A stretch of DNA of 64,000 bases from an uncultured Opitutales bacterium (GTDB taxonomy: Bacteria > Verrucomicrobiota > Verrucomicrobiia > Opitutales > Intestinicryptomonadaceae). Position 1 is the stretch's first letter, and each line of letters starts with the position of its first letter. The position numbers were made by a program, and so were the translations under genes. The stretch covers positions 62,001 to 126,000 of the forward strand of contig CALXLM010000048.1 in the NCBI GenBank assembly GCA_944389195.1. Direction: 5' to 3'. Below are positions 42,882 through 54,460 of the stretch, in pieces. The notes under the pieces were generated by a model. It made no database searches. It saw only the letters and a list, made by a program, of their open reading frames with translations, and had not been told where the DNA came from.

Positions 42882-43329
42882 CTTTAAAACAAAAATCCCC
42901 GACGTTTTCGGACGTTGGAAAAAATAATGCAATCCTTTTTATAGGGGCGTGAATCCGGGCGCGATTTAAAGATTTTTAACCTGTCAATCCCGCTGCCGGA
43001 AACGCGGCGGCTGGGGGGCACTTGCGGGAGCATTGCCCTTTTGCGGCGTTTGCCTGCCGGCTTTCGGTTTTGCGTTTTTTAACGCGCGTTTGTATGAGCC
43101 GCGGGCGTGCGAGGGGAGGGGGCATGCTTCGGCATGGAAGCGGTGCGGATATTTCCGCGGCCGAAGGGAATATTGTGGCCGCAGCAGGCGCTGCGTGTAT
43201 GCCGTTCCGCCGCACTTCGCGCGGCGTAATCCGGCGATTGCGCCTTGCATCATAGGCGCGCGGGCGGCCCATATGCAGCCGACGATTCTCTTATTGACGG
43301 CCGCCGCGCGGGCGAAGAATATCGGCATC
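42882..43329. other. G/C-rich gene-free interval before the ADP-ribosylglycohydrolase
   Basis: About 450 bases. The left end must hold the AEC gene's promoter (A/T-rich, 42885-42970). The remainder is G/C-rich and is crossed by open frames with no family signature; one is simply the upstream extension of the next gene. No tRNA, repeat or strong hairpin with T run was found. Confidence 0.4.
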
Positions 43330-44868
43330 ATGAAAAAAACAAAGGAATTCCTTGCGATTGCGGCTGCCGTGTGCGCTGCGATTTTTGCGCTTTCGGGCTG
43401 TTCGGGCGAAAAAATAGAGTTAAAAAAATCCGAAATTGCCGACAAAATAAAGGGCGGTTGGGCCGGACAGATAATTGGCTGCACCTACGGCGGGCCGACG
43501 GAGTTTAAATACAAACAAAAGATAATTCCCGACGAAGTAAAAATAAAATGGGATCCAAACCGCCCGATTGCAACAGGAGTATTCGGAGGGCTTTACGACG
43601 ACCTTTATCTCGACATAACTTTTATGGACGTTTTCGAGCGTTTCGGGTTCGGCGCTCCGCGCATTGAATTCCAACGCGCAGTAGGGGAGTCCACATACTA
43701 TCTTTGGGCGGCAAACAGGGCCGCGCGCTTTGCGTGGCTCGACGGGTTTCAGCGCGGCGAACCCACTTCATGGAGGGTTAACCCGTCGTACAACGATATA
43801 GACTTTCAAATAGAGGCGGATTTTGCCGGGCTGATGGCGCCCGCGCTTCCGAACGAGGCGGTTAAATTCGCCGAACCTGCGGGCCGGTCTATAAACTCGA
43901 ACGACGGCTTTTACTGCGGCGCGTATGTTGCGGCAATGTACGCGCTGGCGTTTGTCAGCAGTGATATGGAGTATGTCGCAAGCCGGGCCCTGAAGGTTTT
44001 GCCCTCCGAAAGCCGCACGCGGAAAATGATGTCCGACGTAATCGATTGGTACAAACAAAACCCTTCGGACTGGAAGGCCGCATGGCAAAAGTTCGAGGAC
44101 GCCTACGTGAAAAAGCACGACGCCAATTTCGGAAGCTGCTATATACATGCGCCCATCAACTGCGCATACATACTGATAGGCCTTCTCTACGGCGGCGGGG
44201 ATTTCGAAAAAACAATAGACATATCCACAAGGTGCGGGCTGGATTCCGACTGCAATCCGGCGAACGCCGGAGGCATACTCGCAACCGCCATCGGCTATTC
44301 GAAAATTCCTGAGAAGTTTAGAAAGCCCCTCGAGGCTTGCAGCGACAAGCTTTTCTTGGGAACTTCGTATTCTCCCGACAAGGTTTACAAGACCGGCCTC
44401 AAGCATGCGCTCGCAGTTTTGAAGGCAAGCGGAGCCGAGTTCGACGGCGATACAATTAGCGTTCCCGTAAGGCCGTTGACGGAATTGCCGCTTGAAAGTG
44501 ACGCTCCGTCAAAAGGCGAGGTTTCGTCCAAATATGTTTCGGTAAAATTTGCGGATTCCGTGTCGGTGGAGTTTGAAGGGTGCGGAGTGGTATTATATCC
44601 GGACGAAAAATTTTGCAAAGCCTTCAAGGATTTTGCAGACTCGCAAAAACAGAGGGGATTTGCTGGCGAAATAGCCGTATTTCTCGACGGCAAAGAAGTC
44701 CGAACTGCAAAATTCTTCACCGAAAACTATCGCAATCAGCGTTCGTTTATATTTGCGGAGCGCGGTATCGAAAACGGGAAGCACAGGCTCGAGTTGAGGT
44801 TTGCAAACGCCAAAAAGGGATTCCCGGATTTTTCCGGGAGCCTACAGGTTTTCTCCCGCGTAAAATAG
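43330..44868 (+). CDS. Exported lipoprotein of the ADP-ribosylglycohydrolase (DraG-like) family
   Basis: A 512-residue predicted lipoprotein: signal MKKTKEFLAIAAAVCAAIFALSGC with a lipobox LSGC and lipidated Cys 24. Residues 30-360 carry the ADP-ribosylglycohydrolase fold: KIKGGWAGQIIGCTYGGP (40-57), GLYDDLYLDI with D90/D91, and CGLDSDCNPANAGGI (302-316) with D305/D307 as metal ligands. From about 400 a beta-rich domain follows (VSVEFEGCGVVLYPDE, HRLELRFANAKKGFPDFSG), perhaps a carbohydrate-binding-like module. The family removes ADP-ribose from proteins or small molecules in the cytoplasm; an exported form must have another substrate or role. It stands alone. Start at 43330, the Met before the signal peptide. 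Confidence 0.85.
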   Translation: MKKTKEFLAIAAAVCAAIFALSGCSGEKIELKKSEIADKIKGGWAGQIIGCTYGGPTEFKYKQKIIPDEVKIKWDPNRPIATGVFGGLYDDLYLDITFMDVFERFGFGAPRIEFQRAVGESTYYLWAANRAARFAWLDGFQRGEPTSWRVNPSYNDIDFQIEADFAGLMAPALPNEAVKFAEPAGRSINSNDGFYCGAYVAAMYALAFVSSDMEYVASRALKVLPSESRTRKMMSDVIDWYKQNPSDWKAAWQKFEDAYVKKHDANFGSCYIHAPINCAYILIGLLYGGGDFEKTIDISTRCGLDSDCNPANAGGILATAIGYSKIPEKFRKPLEACSDKLFLGTSYSPDKVYKTGLKHALAVLKASGAEFDGDTISVPVRPLTELPLESDAPSKGEVSSKYVSVKFADSVSVEFEGCGVVLYPDEKFCKAFKDFADSQKQRGFAGEIAVFLDGKEVRTAKFFTENYRNQRSFIFAERGIENGKHRLELRFANAKKGFPDFSGSLQVFSRVK

Positions 44869-45292
44869 AGTGGCGATTCGCGGCGGGAACAGGCGCAATG
44901 ACCAAAAGCGGGTCCTAAATCGCATTGAATTTAAGAATTTCGCCAAACTTGGGGGAGGGCTTTATCTGTTTTAAGGTATAGCGCCGTTTTTTTAGCTGCA
45001 TTTTTCTTTTTGTTTGGCGATATTCTTAAGCTTTTGGGGGTAATCACTCCGGCAGTTGGGCTGCGCACTTAGGCCTTTTATTGATTCGATTTGTCCAGCT
45101 GCGGACTTCTTGGTGTCGATAAGCAGTCTTGCGGGCGGTTGTTTTTTTCTAAAGACGGAGCGTGGATTCTAAAGACGGCGCATATTGCGTTTTTTGCTTG
45201 CGCGCCGAATGATGCGGGCGGCTTGCTGCGCCTACGCTGTCTGCTTTCGCAAGAAGCGTTTTATTTACATGGCGTTTCTGCGCCGGGCATAG

Positions 45293-45319
45293 CGGGTTTT
45301 GCCCGCAGTGGAAAACCCG
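45293..45319 (+). other. Perfect 8-base hairpin in the gene-free interval
   Basis: CGGGTTTT (45293-45300) pairs with AAAACCCG (45312-45319) around an 11-base loop. It lies 12 bases upstream of the orphan terminator and may belong to the same RNA. Confidence 0.45.
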
Positions 45320-45330
45320 TTTCTTTAGTC

Positions 45331-45377
45331 GGTGTACATGTGGCAAGCGCAACGTTGCCAAAGAACACCATTTTTTT
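45331..45377 (+). terminator. Orphan Rho-independent terminator
   Basis: Two nested stems, GGTGT/ACACC (45331-45335 and 45365-45369) and TGGCAA/TTGCCA (45341-45346 and 45355-45360), precede a run of seven T (45371-45377). No gene ends upstream within 460 bases on this strand, so it may end an RNA gene or a long 3' UTR. Confidence 0.65.
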
Positions 45378-45940
45378 ATCTTTGATTCGCAATTTTTGAA
45401 AAATCCCATTCATGAATAAAAATTTAAAAAAAAGCTATTTTATCGTTTGTTTTTGCGTCGGCTTTTTTAATGGATCAAAAGAACAAATTTTTTAGCCGTA
45501 AATAGCAAAATCGTAAAGGTTCTTTCTCGGTATTATGAACAAGAAACGCGCATGGGCGATTTGAAATTGTTTTACGTATGGAAATTCGCAAATTTCGGTA
45601 AATATGGCTCGACGCGCAACGGCGGCATTTTAAATGCATGATTTGATTTGGGTATTGGGCTTGGGATTTATATGTTTCGGTTTTTGCGCGGCAATTTCAA
45701 TGGAAATTTGGGCTTCGGAAGAATCAATCGGAAAAGTTTTTCGATTTTTTGCAATGGCATTTCCGAAGCTGATGTCGCTGTGCATTCCATTTTTTAAGTT
45801 GCAGCCGGTTAATTGCGGATAACGCAGAGTAAAAATTACACGCTTTTGCATTTACCGCGATTCTTATAACAAGCGATATTAAAATACCCGCTAAACTAAA
45901 ATACCCTAATACATTTATAAGCGCCGTTTTTTATTCCCGC

Positions 45941-45989
45941 GCGCAAAATATTTCGGACTTTTTGTGTGTTTGCGCGAATATTTTAGCGC
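45941..45989. repeat. Inverted repeat near the SGNH hydrolase 3' end
   Basis: GCGCAAAATATT (45941-45952) and AATATTTTAGCGC (45977-45989) are inverted copies differing by one inserted base, around a 24-base spacer. It lies 215 bases beyond the stop of the SGNH gene. No T run follows on either strand. Confidence 0.5.
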
Positions 45990-46203
45990 CCCACCGATTG
46001 CGAGGATAGGTGGCCGCGGCCCATGCGCTTGGAGAATACGGCGCAAATTCGCCATCCCGGCCCTTGCAAGCCTTGCGCCGTATGCGTATCGCATGCGCGC
46101 AAACGCCCGCGCAGGCGAGGCTGGGCATGCAACTTTATTTGCCGTGGTGGGAGGAGGCCCGTTCAGTGCATTGTGAACGAAAACCTCAAAAAGTGTTGCT
46201 TTG

Positions 46204-47118
46204 CTACATGTCGCGCGGCTGTTTAAAGGACTTTAAAGTGGACGAGGCAATGCCGCGCAGGGCCGCCGCGTCGCCGTCGTCTATTTCCGGCGGAACGTAT
46301 TTGATGTCGGCAGGATCCCTATCGAACAGAAATCCGAACCACACGCATGCCTGAAGATATTTTCCGCGCGCGTTCAGATGTATGGAATCACGGACGATTG
46401 AAAGTTTTCCGTTCTTGCCTTTTTTCCAATTCAAGTTGCCGACTACGTCGCCGGCCTGCTTGGGGAGGTCGGGCCATCTGCAATCACGCAGTTCTTCCGC
46501 AGTGTATGGCTTGAAAGGTTTGCTTTCTGCGGCGCGGTAGTTTTGTACGGCAAGCCCTGATGGGATTATTCTCAGCCCCATTTTTTTGGCGGCGCCGGCG
46601 TAGTTTTTTTCGAGGCGTTCAAACATTTCGCCCTGCGTAATGCCCCATTGCCCGCCCTCGGAAATGCGGGGATCGTCCGAACGGTACGACCATGTCTGTT
46701 GGATTACAACCTCGGCGGACGGGGCGTTTTTTCTAACGTAGTCGAATATGTTTTTTGCGTATGGGAAATACGTTTCTGGCCTCCAACTCGCGTGGCTCGC
46801 TTGCTGTATAGTCACGATGTCCCACTGTCTGCTTTTCAGTATCTCCCTAAGCGAAGCGCGCCCGTTCCTGTAAAGTTTTTTTGACGGGTCTGCCTCCTCT
46901 TCAGATATATATTTCCAGTGTCTGTGAAGCTCGCATCCGCCGTGGTTCGCGCGCTCGATAACCAGGTCGCAGCCGGGCATCGATTCTGCAATTTTAGGCA
47001 GATAGCTGAATACGCTGTCGGCAAAACTGTTGCCTATTGTAAGGACCTTCACCTCTTTCGGAAACGCGAGGCATGCGGCAAAAACCAAATAAACAAGTAC
47101 TGCAATCGACCTTTTCAT
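46204..47118 (-). CDS. Exported SGNH-type hydrolase (DUF4886-like)
   Basis: A 304-residue exported esterase-like protein. After a signal peptide (MKRSIAVLVYLVFAACLAFP) the SGNH catalytic blocks are visible: S31 in LTIGNSFADSV (block I, GNS in place of GDS) and D244/H247 in VRDSIHLNARG (block V), giving a plausible Ser-Asp-His triad; DIVTIQQASH supplies an oxyanion-type segment. Relatives are found beside glycan-degrading enzymes in gut bacteria and are thought to remove acyl groups from carbohydrates. It is divergent from the GH31-like gene (115 bases between starts), so the two may share control. The start is set at the Met preceding the signal peptide; the longer frame is implausible. Confidence 0.8.
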   Translation of the reverse strand: MKRSIAVLVYLVFAACLAFPKEVKVLTIGNSFADSVFSYLPKIAESMPGCDLVIERANHGGCELHRHWKYISEEEADPSKKLYRNGRASLREILKSRQWDIVTIQQASHASWRPETYFPYAKNIFDYVRKNAPSAEVVIQQTWSYRSDDPRISEGGQWGITQGEMFERLEKNYAGAAKKMGLRIIPSGLAVQNYRAAESKPFKPYTAEELRDCRWPDLPKQAGDVVGNLNWKKGKNGKLSIVRDSIHLNARGKYLQACVWFGFLFDRDPADIKYVPPEIDDGDAAALRGIASSTLKSFKQPRDM

Positions 47119-47233
47119 TTTGCCATAGTGTTTTTTTTGAATCTCAACAGTCAAGTAAAAAAGACTTGCGTTGAATGTTGACTGGTTAGCCATAGCATTA
47201 TAGCATGCCGCCATGATTTCAAATTTGGGACCT

Positions 47234-48841
47234 ATGAAAGGGATATCGTATTTTTTTGTTTTTTTGCTTGCCGCCATATGCGCTCACGCCGCGTCTTACA
47301 CTTCTTCAATAAAGCTTTTGGACGGCGAAAAATGGTGGGGGGGAGCCACGGCGTTGGGGCATATGCTTCCGCTTTCCGACGGCGGCAAAACCTGCGACCT
47401 GCGCAAGACGTGCTACAGCAACCAGGCCGCCCCGCTGCTTGTTTCCTCCAAGGGGAGATATATTTGGAGCGACAAGCCGTTTGCCTTTAAAATTAAGGAC
47501 GGCAGCCTTGTAATTGTTTCCGATTTCGAAAAGGTGGAGCCGGCAAAAGCTGGTAAGACGCTTAAGGACGCGTACTTGGCCGCCTCGAAAAAACATTTTC
47601 CCCCCGACGGGAAAATACCGCCTGAGGAGTTTTTCTCAAAGCCCCAGTTTAATACTTGGATTGAACTCGTAAGGAATCAGAACCAACCCGATATTGAAAA
47701 ATATGCGGAAGCGATTGTTGCCAACGGTTTCCCATGCGGCGTGATAATGATAGACGGAGGGTGGGAACGTTATTACGGAATGCTCGAATTTAGGACCGAT
47801 AGATTTCCGAATGCCAAAGCCCTAAACGAAAAGCTCCATAAAATGGGCTTTAAAGTGCTGTATTGGGTGGGGCCGTTTGTCGCCAGCGCGGGGGGAGAAT
47901 ATTTGGAATGGCGCAACGAAGGCGTTTTATTGCAGTCGAAGAAGGGCAAAAAACTCAAAAACGGCCGGCGCGACATTGCAATATGCCCGTTTTGGAGCGG
48001 ATACACCGCACTGTACGACATGACAAACAAGAAAGCGCGCGACCATTTTATTGCCCGACTCAAAAAACTTCAGTCCGATTACTCCATCGACGGTTTCAAA
48101 TTCGACGGCGGAGACAGCCATTACGTGACCTCTCCCGACATTCTTTTCGATTCGCCGGACAACGTTCCCAACGATTACACAGAGGAATGGGCGAAGATCG
48201 GGCTTGAATTTCCCTACAACGAGTACAGGGCGTGCTGGAAGATGGGCGGAAGGGCCATCGTGCAAAGGCTTCTCGACAAATACTATTCGTGGAACGATTT
48301 AAAGCTGCTCGTTCCCCATATGGTCGCGGCCGGGCTTATCGGCCATGCCTATACGTGCCCCGACATGATAGGCGGAGGCGATTACATATCGTTTTTCAAC
48401 GTGGACCAGAGCAAGCTCGACCAGAGGCTGATTGTGCGCTTCGCGCAGGCCTCCGCGCTCATGCCGATGATGCAGTTTTCCCTTGCGCCGTGGCGTGTGC
48501 TCGACAAAAAACACCTCGATTTATGCCGTCAAGCCGCGAATCTCCATGTTAAATTCGGAGATTACATTTTAAAAATGGCGCGGCACGCGTCGAAATCCGG
48601 AGAACCGATTGTTCGGGCGATGGAATACGAGTTCCCGAACCAGGGATTTGAGGAGTGCAAAGACCAGTACATGCTCGGAGACAAATATCTCGTTGCGCCG
48701 GTTCTGACTCCGGACGATTTCCGCAGCGTCAGACTTCCGGACGGCAAATGGCGCGACGAACTCGGAAATGTTTACGAGGGAGGAAAAACCGTGCGCATTG
48801 ACGCTCCCATAGAGCGCCTCCCTTATTTCGAGCGGCTCTGA
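47234..48841 (+). CDS. Secreted GH31-like alpha-glycosidase
   Basis: A 535-residue exported protein. Signal peptide MKGISYFFVFLLAAICAHA; a short beta domain; then a GH31-like barrel with QFNTWIELVRNQNQPDIEKYAEAI, CGVIMIDGGWERYYG (168-182), nucleophile candidate D291 in IDGFKFDGGD, and acid/base candidate D377 in TCPDMIGGGDYISF, followed by the C-terminal beta sandwich (DKYLVAPVLTPDD). GH31 enzymes cut alpha-linked glucose, xylose, galactose or sulfoquinovose; the specificity is not visible. It is shorter than typical GH31 (600-900), mainly in the N-terminal domain. It is divergent from the SGNH hydrolase gene, which suggests joint action on an acylated glycan. Confidence 0.82.
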   Translation: MKGISYFFVFLLAAICAHAASYTSSIKLLDGEKWWGGATALGHMLPLSDGGKTCDLRKTCYSNQAAPLLVSSKGRYIWSDKPFAFKIKDGSLVIVSDFEKVEPAKAGKTLKDAYLAASKKHFPPDGKIPPEEFFSKPQFNTWIELVRNQNQPDIEKYAEAIVANGFPCGVIMIDGGWERYYGMLEFRTDRFPNAKALNEKLHKMGFKVLYWVGPFVASAGGEYLEWRNEGVLLQSKKGKKLKNGRRDIAICPFWSGYTALYDMTNKKARDHFIARLKKLQSDYSIDGFKFDGGDSHYVTSPDILFDSPDNVPNDYTEEWAKIGLEFPYNEYRACWKMGGRAIVQRLLDKYYSWNDLKLLVPHMVAAGLIGHAYTCPDMIGGGDYISFFNVDQSKLDQRLIVRFAQASALMPMMQFSLAPWRVLDKKHLDLCRQAANLHVKFGDYILKMARHASKSGEPIVRAMEYEFPNQGFEECKDQYMLGDKYLVAPVLTPDDFRSVRLPDGKWRDELGNVYEGGKTVRIDAPIERLPYFERL

Positions 48842-49863: not shown

Positions 49864-50865
49864 ATGAATTTTTTAAGCAGGATAGGGCTCGAACCGTTTA
49901 TAATTTGCCTTTTTGCGTCGATAGCTTTGGCATGGGCCGCTCCGGAAGTGGGAAATTTCGCGGTGGCGGGAATTTCGCTTGGAGACGCCGCTTCATGGGG
50001 CGTAGTGGGGATATTCTTTTTTTACGGGCTCAGGCTGGACCGCCGCAAGCTAAGGGCGGGGCTTGTAAATGTTAGGCTACATATCCTTGTGCATTTGTCG
50101 ACGTTCGTGCTGTTCCCGGCGATTGTATTGTGCGCGATGTCGGTTTGCGGCGCCTTTGAGGCGGAGGGGGACCTTCACTGGCTTTGGTTGGGAACGTTTT
50201 TTTTGGCTACGCTTCCGTCAACGGTATCTTCCAGCGTGGTAATGGTGTCGATAGCGGGCGGAAACATGCCTGCTGCTATTTTTAACGCGAGCATATCGAG
50301 TTTATTGGGGGTTTTTATAACGCCGCTTTGGATGAGCCTGTTCCTCGAGGGGGTGGACGGTTCGCGCGGGCTCGCGGAGGTGATTGTCAAACTTGTAGTG
50401 CAGGTGATAATTCCTGTGGTTGCGGGAATTGCGCTCAACCCGAAGTTCGGATTCTTTGCGGAGGCGCACAGGAAAGCTTTGAGAAATTTCGACCAGTTCG
50501 TAATTCTTATGATAGTCTATACGTCGTTTTGCGATTCTTTTGAAAAGCGAATGTTTTCTGGCTTTCCCGTTTCGGATTTGGTCGTTTTGTCGGCGGCGAT
50601 GGTTGTTCTGTTTTTTGCTGCGATGGCGGTGGTGTGGCTTTTCTGCCGCATCATGGGCTTCAACAGGGAGGATACGATAACCGCCGTTTTTTGCGGCTCG
50701 AAAAAGTCGCTTGTGCACGGATCTGTTATGAGCAAGGTGCTTTTCGACAATCCCGCAGTCATAGGGGTGGTACTCTTGCCTACAATGCTGTATCACGCCT
50801 ATCAACTGATCATAGTTTCGGTCATAGCGCAGAAGTTGGGAAGGCCGGGGCAAAAAGGCGCGTAG
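49864..50865 (+). CDS. SBF-like (bile acid:sodium symporter family) transporter
   Basis: A 333-residue protein with about ten hydrophobic segments. FFYGLRLDRRKLRAGL near 60-75, FLATLPSTVSSSVVMVSIAGGNMPAAIFNAS near 115-145 and CGSKKSLVHGSVMSKVLF near 280 match the SBF-like family (YfeH/SLC10A7 type), in which the S-T/S-x-x-x-x-x-x-x-G-N segment helps bind sodium. The substrate is unknown; these are not necessarily bile acid carriers. ATG at 49864 is used; an upstream TTG (49828) in frame is weaker. Confidence 0.85.
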   Translation: MNFLSRIGLEPFIICLFASIALAWAAPEVGNFAVAGISLGDAASWGVVGIFFFYGLRLDRRKLRAGLVNVRLHILVHLSTFVLFPAIVLCAMSVCGAFEAEGDLHWLWLGTFFLATLPSTVSSSVVMVSIAGGNMPAAIFNASISSLLGVFITPLWMSLFLEGVDGSRGLAEVIVKLVVQVIIPVVAGIALNPKFGFFAEAHRKALRNFDQFVILMIVYTSFCDSFEKRMFSGFPVSDLVVLSAAMVVLFFAAMAVVWLFCRIMGFNREDTITAVFCGSKKSLVHGSVMSKVLFDNPAVIGVVLLPTMLYHAYQLIIVSVIAQKLGRPGQKGA

Positions 50866-51651
50866 CTTGTTTGTTGCTATTGAACGAAACTATTTTCCGA
50901 AATGTTCTGAAAATAAAGGGCATTCCCTGAAGATGCCGATTAATCCGCCGCTGCGGGGCGGGAAGAGGCGGGCAGCAAAACTGAAACGCGTCGCGGCGGG
51001 CATTTACGGCGGAGCTTTTTTTGCGCGGGCAAAAATACCGGCATGTGTATATGGTTTTTTGGGCGCAAAAATAGCGCGAAACCGTATGATATTTAGAAGC
51101 ATGGCACCAGTTTGGTTTGGTCGAAGAACCGCCGGCACCCGCGGAAATTGTGGGGCGGTTAAGCAATCTCTATTTTGGCGCCTCGGGTGTGCGGTTTCTT
51201 CACTGCGGGCGCGTTTGCTTGCGGATTCTTTTTCTTGAATATCCGTAAATGGCTGTGCCGTTTGCGCAGAATGGCTCCGATTTGCAGGTTGCATATTTTC
51301 GCGGATTTGGCCATGCCTCCTTTTGCATGAGGCTGCAGGTTAGATTAGAATAAACAAACATGCGCGATATCCCCTTGCTTTCAGGTAGCCTGCGTATAAT
51401 GATGCAACGCCATAGGCAACCAGATAAATGGCGCGGGCGGATAAGCGCATAGATGGTAGAGTTTATTTCAGGGTTTTGGGAATAAGGTTTTTTTGCGAGT
51501 ATCAACGTATTTTTGAACTGTGTTTGATAGTATAGTTTTATTGTAAGCGACAGACTGGTCTTTTCCCTTTACTTGGGGGTTAAATTATCCTATTTATTAA
51601 TTGCTTCTTTGGCTTAATTTTTCGGCTGAATAAAGTTTTTTGGGAAAAAGA
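50866..51651. other. 0.8-kb gene-free interval
   Basis: No recognisable gene, RNA or mobile element. The left two thirds are G/C-rich with short A/T runs; the last 150 bases before the exported unknown gene are A/T-rich and probably contain its promoter, but no clear -35/-10 pair with normal spacing was found. Confidence 0.35.
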
Positions 51652-53985
51652 ATGACTATAAAAAAATTATTGGAAATTGCGTTTGCGCCATTTTTATTTG
51701 CACTTTCGTGCGTATGCGCGGATTTGCAAGGCGCCGGGACGGTTTCGTTGCCCGGGCAGAACGGAAAGACTCCCGCCATAGACTATTCGTATTTTCCAAG
51801 CCGGCTGCACGCGTTTGTATTTAGAAATTGGACTTGCGTTCCGGTGGGACGCCTTGCGCAAACCGTCGGAGCAACGGAGGAACAGATACGCTCTGTCGCC
51901 TCCATGATGGGTTTGCCGGAACAGGGCAAGGTAGAGGGCGCATGGAAGGATAAGGGGTATATAACGGTTTTGAGGAGAAATTGGCATATGCTCGATTATC
52001 CGCAGCTTCTGGTTCTGCTTGGAATGTCGGCCGAGGAGCTCGAATTCAAGCTTATAGCCGACGACTTTCTTTACATAAAACTCGGTTCCGTAAAACCCAA
52101 ATGCGGGCCTCTCAAATACTCCGAGCCGGATGCCGCAATATCGACAAAGTGCGCCGAGTTTAAGAAGCTTATGCAGGCCGAAGGCGCGGACAGACTTTTT
52201 AAGGGCGCCGAAAGGTTTAAGTTTAACGATGAAATGTCGCTCATGCCCGAAGGCACCGCCCGGGAGCCCCAAAAGGGAAACATAGTGATGGCGTATCCGT
52301 ATTTTTCCGAATACGGAGACTGCCTTCTTGACGACGATGTTTCTTCGTATTCCGACGCGCTTTTGAGGCATTACCAGAAGGTGGGGGTAAACGCCGTGTG
52401 GATGCATGTCGTTCTTCGAACCCTCGTCGAAAACGGCGGCATATACGACGATTCCCCCGACGCCCCCCGCAGGCTGAAAAATCTCAACAAGCTTGTCTCC
52501 AGAGCCGAAAAATACGGCATAAAGGTGTTCTTATATTTGAACGAGCCGCGTGCCATGCCGCCTAAATTTTTTGAATCTTCACCCGGACGAGCCGCGTTGA
52601 AAGGCACTCCGGACGGCGGAATGATAGCCCTTTGCACCTCCCAAAAGCCCGTTTTGGACTGGCTCGAAAACGCCACAGCGCGGCTTTTCAAAGCTGTGCC
52701 GAAGCTCGGCGGAGTGTTTACCATAACCGCCTCTGAATGCCTTACAAATTGCCTGTCGCACAGATTGGCCAAGGATATTTGCAAGGTGTGCGCCGCGCGC
52801 GGCAGCCCCGTGATTGTATCGGAGGTAAACAATGCAATTTTCCGCGGAATGCGTTCGGCGAGCAAGAACGCGGAAATGATAGTTTGGGATTGGGGGTGGC
52901 GGCCGGAGGCGGTCGAAGGCACCGTGGAGCTTCTTGAGAGGGACTGCATTTTGATGTGCGTAAGCGAGTGGGATTTGTCGTTTAAACGGGGCCCCGTGGA
53001 GAGCAGCGTAAACGAATATTGCATATCCTGTTCGGATTCTGCTCCGGGGCCGCGGGCAAGGAACCTTTGGAGCCTTGCAAAAAAGCGGGGGATGCGCGCG
53101 ATGGCCAAAGTTCAGGTTAACACCTCTTGGGAGTTTTCTCCTGTCCCGTATATTCCTTATGTGGACATTGTGGCGAGGCACTCTAAGAATTTAAAGGATA
53201 TGGGCGTCGGGAACGTCCTTTTGAATTGGAGTTTGGGCGGTTATCCGTCGGTCAACATAGAGGCGTTCAATTCTTTCGACAAATCTCTTTCCGTTGAGGA
53301 AAATTTGCGCAAGATAGCCCTGCGCCGATACGGTGAAAAAGCGTCCGCCCATGTTTTGAGGGCGTGGACTGAATTTTCGGACGCGTGGAGGGAATATCCT
53401 TTTGATATAACATTGGCTTATTTTGGAGTCCAGCACATGGGGGCGGCTAATCCCGTGTATGTTAAACCGAGCGGCTACCGGGCGACCATGGTAGGCATTC
53501 CGTACGATAATTTAAGGTTGTGGCGCTCAAAGTATCCCGAAGGCGTCTTGATAAGCCAGCTTGAAAAAGTTGTATCCGGTTTGGACAGGGGCATAGCCTC
53601 CCTGATTGAGGCAGAATCCTCGGGCGGCCTAAAGGAGGAGGCGGGGAGGGAAATTTCGGCGCAGATACGCTACGCCCGCTGCGCTCTTATAAGCCTGAAG
53701 AGTTTTGCCAACCAGTCGCGCTTTATAATCCTCAGGGACAGAATTTTTACCTCCGCCTCAAGGGAGGCGTTCGACGCCGACAAAGAAAAAATGCTTGCCC
53801 TGCTAAGCGATGAAAAACTCCTCGCCCGCGAAATGTACAAACTTTGCCTCGAGGACGAATTTATCGGCTATGAAGCATCAAACCATTATTTTTATATACC
53901 GGCGGATTTATTGGAGAAAATCGCATCTGTTGAATATGCTTGCAATTATTTCCGCGCCAAAAATTTTGAAGGCATAAAAAAGTGA
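51652..53985 (+). CDS. Large exported protein of unknown function, possible glycosidase
   Basis: A 777-residue protein with a signal peptide (MTIKKLLEIAFAPFLFALSCVCA) and no lipobox of standard form. The middle looks like a TIM barrel: YQKVGVNAVWMHVVLRTLVE near 240, KYGIKVFLYLNEPRAM near 290, FTITASECLTN near 360, VIVSEVNNAIF, MIVWDWGW near 405, and a WEFSPVPYIPYVDIV stretch near 480. N-L-N-E-P and T-A-S-E-C contain acids in positions that could be catalytic. The C-terminal 250 residues are helical. I suspect a hexosaminidase-like or GH20/DUF4838-like enzyme, but cannot name a family. It stands alone on the plus strand between two gene-poor intervals. Start at the ATG 12 bases into the longest frame. 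Confidence 0.6.
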   Translation: MTIKKLLEIAFAPFLFALSCVCADLQGAGTVSLPGQNGKTPAIDYSYFPSRLHAFVFRNWTCVPVGRLAQTVGATEEQIRSVASMMGLPEQGKVEGAWKDKGYITVLRRNWHMLDYPQLLVLLGMSAEELEFKLIADDFLYIKLGSVKPKCGPLKYSEPDAAISTKCAEFKKLMQAEGADRLFKGAERFKFNDEMSLMPEGTAREPQKGNIVMAYPYFSEYGDCLLDDDVSSYSDALLRHYQKVGVNAVWMHVVLRTLVENGGIYDDSPDAPRRLKNLNKLVSRAEKYGIKVFLYLNEPRAMPPKFFESSPGRAALKGTPDGGMIALCTSQKPVLDWLENATARLFKAVPKLGGVFTITASECLTNCLSHRLAKDICKVCAARGSPVIVSEVNNAIFRGMRSASKNAEMIVWDWGWRPEAVEGTVELLERDCILMCVSEWDLSFKRGPVESSVNEYCISCSDSAPGPRARNLWSLAKKRGMRAMAKVQVNTSWEFSPVPYIPYVDIVARHSKNLKDMGVGNVLLNWSLGGYPSVNIEAFNSFDKSLSVEENLRKIALRRYGEKASAHVLRAWTEFSDAWREYPFDITLAYFGVQHMGAANPVYVKPSGYRATMVGIPYDNLRLWRSKYPEGVLISQLEKVVSGLDRGIASLIEAESSGGLKEEAGREISAQIRYARCALISLKSFANQSRFIILRDRIFTSASREAFDADKEKMLALLSDEKLLAREMYKLCLEDEFIGYEASNHYFYIPADLLEKIASVEYACNYFRAKNFEGIKK

Positions 53986-54460
53986 TGCCGCCGAAACTTT
54001 CCTGCGGTTGTGAGCATATTAAAGACTCGGAATTTGCGTTCAATCGGAGCATTTTTCTTTTATGTGCTTAAATTCTTGCGTCGATTGCGGGATTGTGGCT
54101 TTTGGGGCAGGATTATTATTAGAATGCGGTTAGTGTGTTTTTTGTGGTTCGGCAGGAAAGTTTGCGCATAAGTCGATTATAGCTCAGTACATGTGTTCCT
54201 GTTGTTCCGCCTTCGGCTATGCCGCGCAGCGTTAGAGGCCCATGCTATAATGTCAGCTATTGGAGTGGACGGAAGCTGGTGGCTAAAAATAACTTAAGTT
54301 TTCGCGCATATGTATGCTAGAAATACTGGGTAAAAATCCGTTTGCATGCGTGGGGAGGTATTTTTTTTGTGAAGCCGATACTGAAACTTTGAAAATAAAA
54401 GTCAAAAAAACTCTTGACGAGGCGGAACATAAACGTAAAGTCATTTATTTTTCATTAAAA
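53986..54460. other. Gene-free interval upstream of rplM
   Basis: About 475 bases. It contains TATAAT at 54245-54250 without a good -35, and nearer the gene TTGACG-16-TAAAGT (given separately). The open frame that extends rplM upstream is not like L13. No tRNA or known riboregulator was recognised. Confidence 0.4.
54414..54441 (+). promoter_or_regulatory. Candidate promoter of rplM-rpsI
   Basis: TTGACG (54414-54419), a 16-base spacer and TAAAGT (54436-54441) lie 20 bases before the rplM start. The short leader leaves little room for a ribosome site, consistent with the general lack of Shine-Dalgarno motifs here. Confidence 0.35.

Follow-up and report, generated by a model that had tools for sequence, protein, structure and literature searches.

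Remote membership of the GH20 superfamily and a putatively changed active site in a conserved exported protein with a predicted TIM barrel

The stretch of DNA analysed here (the window, 64,000 nucleotides from an uncultured Opitutales bacterium) encodes a conserved, exported member of a widespread, undescribed bacterial family, which is probably a glycosidase whose active site is altered and whose N-terminal module is unusual. The computations gave a predicted TIM barrel, a relation to GH20, and a glutamate (E362) that falls on the GH20 acid/base Glu; the Asp that partners it in GH20 is missing from 71 of 71 aligned sequences. The reading that we favor with some confidence, from sequence and structural model, is an exported GH20-superfamily glycoside hydrolase in which E362 would serve as the acid/base and E439 (less likely E494) as a second carboxylate, acting on a sugar with or without an N-acetyl group.

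The gene (Table 1) is a genuine coding region of 777 aa, as the first-pass annotation had it, with homologues and purifying selection to its credit; an alternative TTG start at 51640 would extend the product to 781 aa. Two uncultured Opitutales bins (L002 and L003) carry a collinear 777-aa protein with 80% identity to the window protein. Between the window gene and these two relatives pN was ∼0.11 and pS 0.63-0.67, and the Jukes-Cantor values were dN ∼0.12 and dS ∼1.4-1.7 (near saturation). The dN/dS of ∼0.07-0.09, to be read with dS near saturation, is low and therefore indicates purifying selection on the window gene. Broken copies exist among the relatives: one is interrupted by a frame change (L004:7925-10258) and two (L161 and L164) have one in-frame stop each, due to decay or assembly error. 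The window gene stands alone and shares no operon with other sugar genes. Upstream, the gene of an SBF-like transporter ends at 50865; downstream, the next genes, which start at 54314, look from their sequences to encode ribosomal proteins L13 and S9 and, after these, a row of arginine-biosynthesis proteins. Promoter- and terminator-like sites around the gene did not exceed chance expectation. Further upstream and non-contiguous with it, positions 43033-48841 of the window encode an ADP-ribosylglycohydrolase-like exported protein, a DUF4886 protein and a GH31 enzyme.

Table 1. Coordinates of the gene and of the predicted features of its product (window positions).
Feature	Position	Strand	Basis and remarks
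Complete CDS, 777 aa plus stop	51652..53985	+	ATG at 51652, stop ends at 53985; ORF list and homologues
Signal-peptide-like N-terminus, residues 1-23, MTIKKLLEIAFAPFLFALSCVCA	51652..51720	+	Hydrophobic-stretch heuristic; cleavage site by eye
N-terminal module, residues 45-150: two tandem tri-helical, helix-turn-helix-like units, motif RNW	51784..52101	+	hhalign, structure prediction, profile searches
TIM barrel, ∼residues 209-530	52276..53241	+	AlphaFold2, Foldseek, VIA-align
E298 (YLNEPR), end of strand 3	52543..52545	+	Glu 60/71
Four-Cys set C328, C367, C377, C380	52633..52791	+	Each at least 69/71
E362 (TASEC), end of strand 4	52735..52737	+	Glu 71/71; aligned with GH20 proton-donor Glu; proposed general acid/base
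E439 (VSEW), end of strand 6	52966..52968	+	Glu 70/71; putative nucleophile or base
E494 (SWEF), after strand 7	53131..53133	+	Glu 70/71; alternative second carboxylate
Helical C-terminal region, residues 548-776; conserved R695, E721, D735, Y746	53293..53979	+	AlphaFold2, alignment

Homologues of the window protein were found in 93 of the 387 genomes sampled from the phylum, and one Armatimonadota bin also carries one; the earlier description of the protein as an orphan is thus refuted. The distribution is patchy, with a homologue in 4 of 14 genomes of the window's own genus. There were no relatives in the viral collection and no match in PHROGs. The family has no curated Pfam or NCBIfam model: neither the window protein nor the ten relatives scanned reached a cut-off in the two collections, and PF00728 was matched neither by the window protein (E up to 1) nor by the ten relatives (E up to 0.1). 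The nearest approach in Pfam was a sub-threshold GH20b domain in a sister-group member (L062, E 9e-4). Weak matches of the window protein to Humanin, isochorismatase, enoyl-CoA hydratase and triosephosphate isomerase were taken as chance. The sister group (L045-L082) is a second large set of barrel proteins lacking a Pfam assignment; it comes in two sizes, ∼580-680 and ∼880-980 aa, and its GH20 relationship is clearer than that of the window family. Another relative (L098:2098-9720, minus strand) combines, within 2541 aa, the window-type domain with GH18-like, GHL10 and laminin-G-like stretches.

Descent was examined by comparing a family profile of 71 relatives with a GH20 profile of 15 GH20 or GH20-like proteins from the phylum. 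The two matched over 252 columns with a probability of 96.3 (E 2e-9). The sister group, which lacks the N-terminus of the window family, matched GH20 at 97.9 (E 3e-13), and the window family minus the sister group at 89.4 (E 2e-6). The sister-group profile also detected the GH20 structure 6q63 in the PDB (E 8.5e-5) through its GH20b and barrel stretches together. In the controls, the GH42-like group gave 0.1 against either the family or GH20, and GH42 gave 37.8 against GH20. GH42, at which the four-Cys pattern had hinted, was rejected, because its probability with the family (42.9) is about level with that control. In the alignment, the family segment CTS..V..WL......LF..VP.LGGVFTITASE lies on yCag.edtf.yie.vltEv..lFP.kYlHIGGDE of GH20, and the family CKVC on GH20 CAKC. 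The profile similarity is significant over the barrel including the acid/base Glu, with controls far lower, and we concluded from the profiles that by descent the window family belongs to the GH20 superfamily, as one of its remote members. It was filed under the superfamily and not under GH20 itself because the defining Asp-Glu pair was looked for and not found. The window's 2.4 Mb genome has 28 GH42-like matches and its genus relative G342 has 32, within open frames that vary in size; for genomes this small, one barrel type has expanded greatly.

An AlphaFold2 model of the window protein, built from 8 aligned sequences, reached a pTM of 0.76 and a mean pLDDT of 73. It starts with a hydrophobic stretch and a helical N-terminus (51-143), followed by a barrel with strands at 212, 248, 291, 354, 408, 433, 482, and 521 and by the helical C-terminal region, in which residues 585-627 are poorly modelled. 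The pLDDT falls below 50 in loops near the active site (370-373, 453-456, 491-499, and 527-531). The TIM-barrel-like centre and helical C-terminus anticipated by the first-pass annotation are borne out by this model. The Foldseek search that it had proposed ranked GH138 first among PDB entries (E 8e-11), then GH20, GH89 (E 1e-7) and GH115, and VIA-align returned GH84 (Z 19.4), GH67 (Z 17.6) and GH138 (Z 16.9; 471 residues, 5.0 Å); the matches listed by both programs are all glycosidases. The protein had earlier been regarded as a possible new glycosidase family that could not be placed. An exported barrel with catalytic acids, below the Pfam and NCBIfam cut-offs and with glycosidases as its fold and profile matches, agrees with the first half of that view, but the protein can be placed, as a remote GH20-superfamily member.

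The predicted fold by itself leaves the substrate unfixed. An exo-α-uronidase of the GH138, GH67 or GH115 kind, in which E362 and E439 would cut α-linked galacturonic or glucuronic acid and K486 and R300 would hold the carboxylate, would fit the top rank of GH138 by Foldseek E-value, its alignment over both the barrel and the helical C-terminus, the scores of GH115 and GH67, and the conservation of K486 (67/71) and R300 (64/71). However, the GH138, GH67 and GH115 chains in the PDB were matched at the sequence level by neither the protein (phmmer) nor the family and sister profiles, the TM-scores of 0.37-0.49 are moderate and identity is 11%, and VIA-align places GH84 above GH138. Basic pocket residues are also unspecific, and pectin or xylan genes are not consistently found nearby. 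We consider a uronidase unlikely.

Residues of the putative active site were counted in an alignment of 71 members (window family and sister group). Four motifs with possible catalytic acids had been pointed out at first pass. One of them, TASEC, stands with E362 as an invariant candidate, but the others do not: E298 of YLNEPR is less conserved (Table 1), E391 of VSEVN is Glu in 55/71 and sits in a helix, and WDWGW corresponds to a conserved strand of aromatic residues (W414 in 62/71, with W or Y in all; W416 in 68/71). E439 and E494, the two further conserved glutamates, had been missed. Y456 (71/71), Q488 (68/71) and W526 (69/71) are conserved as well. C328, C377, and C380 correspond to the "C ... 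CpkC" motif that flanks the catalytic pair in many GH20 enzymes, and together with C367 they may form a structural metal site. In GH20, an Asp-Glu pair serves a substrate-assisted mechanism with Glu as the proton donor; in the V. harveyi enzyme the catalytic pair is Asp437 and Glu438, as mutation and chemical rescue showed, and an Asp-Asp pair on loop 2 has a role described in the same work (PMC4752478). At the position of the catalytic-pair Asp (361), the family has Ser in 63 and Gly in 8 of the sequences, and the profile alignment gave no counterpart of the loop 2 Asp-Asp pair in the aligned family region.

These two absences speak against the protein still being a hexosaminidase, in which the substrate N-acetyl group would be the nucleophile as in GH20 and E439 or E494 would stand in for the Asp. 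The clear profile relationship to GH20 argues for such an enzyme, and acetylated amino sugars would fit the NagA-like amidohydrolases that adjoin the gene in two relatives (L115 and L122) and the polysaccharide deacetylase found close by in four (L096, L101, L104, and L106). But this linkage occurs in few relatives, and the NagA identity was read by eye, Pfam giving amidohydrolase only. A retained hexosaminidase mechanism therefore seems to us improbable. Loss of the Asp might also mark a pseudoenzyme that retains the barrel and binds glycans but is no longer catalytic. Pseudoenzymes usually lose such catalytic residue sets, however, and here window family and sister group alike have retained E362, E439, E494, Y456 and the strand-end aromatics; the low dN/dS also argues against this reading, and we regard it as very unlikely.

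In the favored two-carboxylate hydrolase, E362 would donate a proton to the leaving sugar, and E439, or less likely E494, would be the nucleophile or base; for E439 this role is suggested by its conservation and its position after strand 6. With E362 and a second carboxylate, catalysis would, unlike that of GH20, no longer depend on an N-acetyl group of the substrate, which may be a neutral or acidic sugar. The pairing of E362 and E439 would resemble GH138, whose catalytic residues are two glutamates, Glu294 and Glu361. The enzyme might remove single sugars from glycan ends outside the cytoplasm, the exo action being a guess.

The N-terminal module consists of two copies of a ∼50-residue unit (RNW..vP..rLa.vLg.t.e.i), which matched each other in hhalign at 92.6 (E 4e-7). 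Predicted alone, each copy forms a tri-helix with helix-turn-helix spacing. A PDB structure search with the module returned nothing significant (Foldseek E of at least 0.5, Z of at most 4.5). Several helix-turn-helix proteins were among the weak matches; DNA binding is not proposed, because the matches are weak and the window protein is exported. The module is the best conserved part of the protein, with a mean column identity of 60% vs. 37% for the whole protein. Stand-alone copies were absent from 145 genomes, all full matches lying in open frames of 716-953 aa, and the module profile recognised the basal sister-group member L044 (E 1e-14) and none of the other 20 sister-group members. In the window family the module occupies the place before the barrel that GH20b holds in GH20, and there is no GH20b domain there. 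GH20b is required for stability (PMC4449183). The tri-helical pair probably packs on the barrel, where it would support or complete the active-site pocket.

The signal peptide noted at first pass was recovered as a signal-peptide-like stretch by a hydrophobic-stretch heuristic. By the same heuristic, 21 of 50 window-family members have such an N-terminus and 29 have none; the 21 include L017 and L022, whose Tat-like signals were added by eye. On the tree, presence or absence of the signal needs one change, which separates L017, L022 and the window protein from L024-L078. Judged by these N-termini, one clade including the window protein is exported and its sister clade is cytosolic, and the same kind of enzyme would therefore work outside the cytoplasm in one set of species and inside it in the other, where it might act in the same way on imported oligosaccharides. 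In keeping with the favored reading, LacI regulators, MFS transporters, polysaccharide deacetylases and one GH95 are among the genes next to the relatives; in L101, L104, and L106 of the cytosolic clade a recurrent set is made up of genes for a LacI regulator, an M24 peptidase, a polysaccharide deacetylase and a DUF6786-like protein. The neighbourhood was rejected as a guide to the substrate, since a Pfam tally of 75 neighbours was scattered and the genes are heterogeneous.

Taken further, these features may define a new GH20-superfamily glycosidase family with exported and cytosolic clades, in which a two-carboxylate mechanism replaces substrate-assisted catalysis and a duplicated helix-turn-helix-like module that helps to form the active site replaces GH20b; we put this forward tentatively, as a possibility that falls short of even confidence. 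GH20, GH84, GH89, GH67, GH115, and GH138 have a common barrel fold, and their mechanism (substrate-assisted or carboxylate) and sugars differ. A family with the GH20 acid/base Glu and flanking Cys motif and without the Asp would be a useful intermediate for such a mechanism switch. It occurs in about a quarter of the phylum's sampled genomes, and pipelines resting on Pfam or NCBIfam would overlook it because it matches no curated model.

Among known systems, GH84, GH89, GH115, and GH67 have the same overall barrel fold as the window protein, with no sequence-level match. DUF4838 (PF16126, annotated as GH163) matches the family profile with a probability of 95.9 (E 6e-9), a similarity that takes in the CTS and CxxC cysteines. 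The window protein stays below the PF16126 cut-off, and the likeness is a remote profile similarity only; it lacks the DUF4838 N-terminal domain, and the family E362 aligns close to D289 in the QNDW motif of DUF4838 and not with a Glu. Three tandem DUF4838 genes are present in the window's own genome (L038-L040; G000:C40:29323-35145). The GH138 α-galacturonidase (6hzg, 6hzf) shares the barrel with a helical C-terminal part in the fold comparison, whereas identity is 11% and PDB chains gave no phmmer or profile match; the alignment takes in 6hzg from residue 130 onward and leaves its N-terminal domain unmatched. GH20 β-N-acetylhexosaminidases and lacto-N-biosidases (PF00728, PF02838) have in common with the window family the TIM barrel, the acid/base Glu at the end of strand 4 (TASE on GGDE) and the C...CpkC motif. 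The GH20 Asp used for handling N-acetyl sugars is Ser or Gly in the family, and in comparison with the GH20 model A architecture the window family has the duplicated helical module instead of GH20b and adds the conserved E439 and E494 and a long helical C-terminus.
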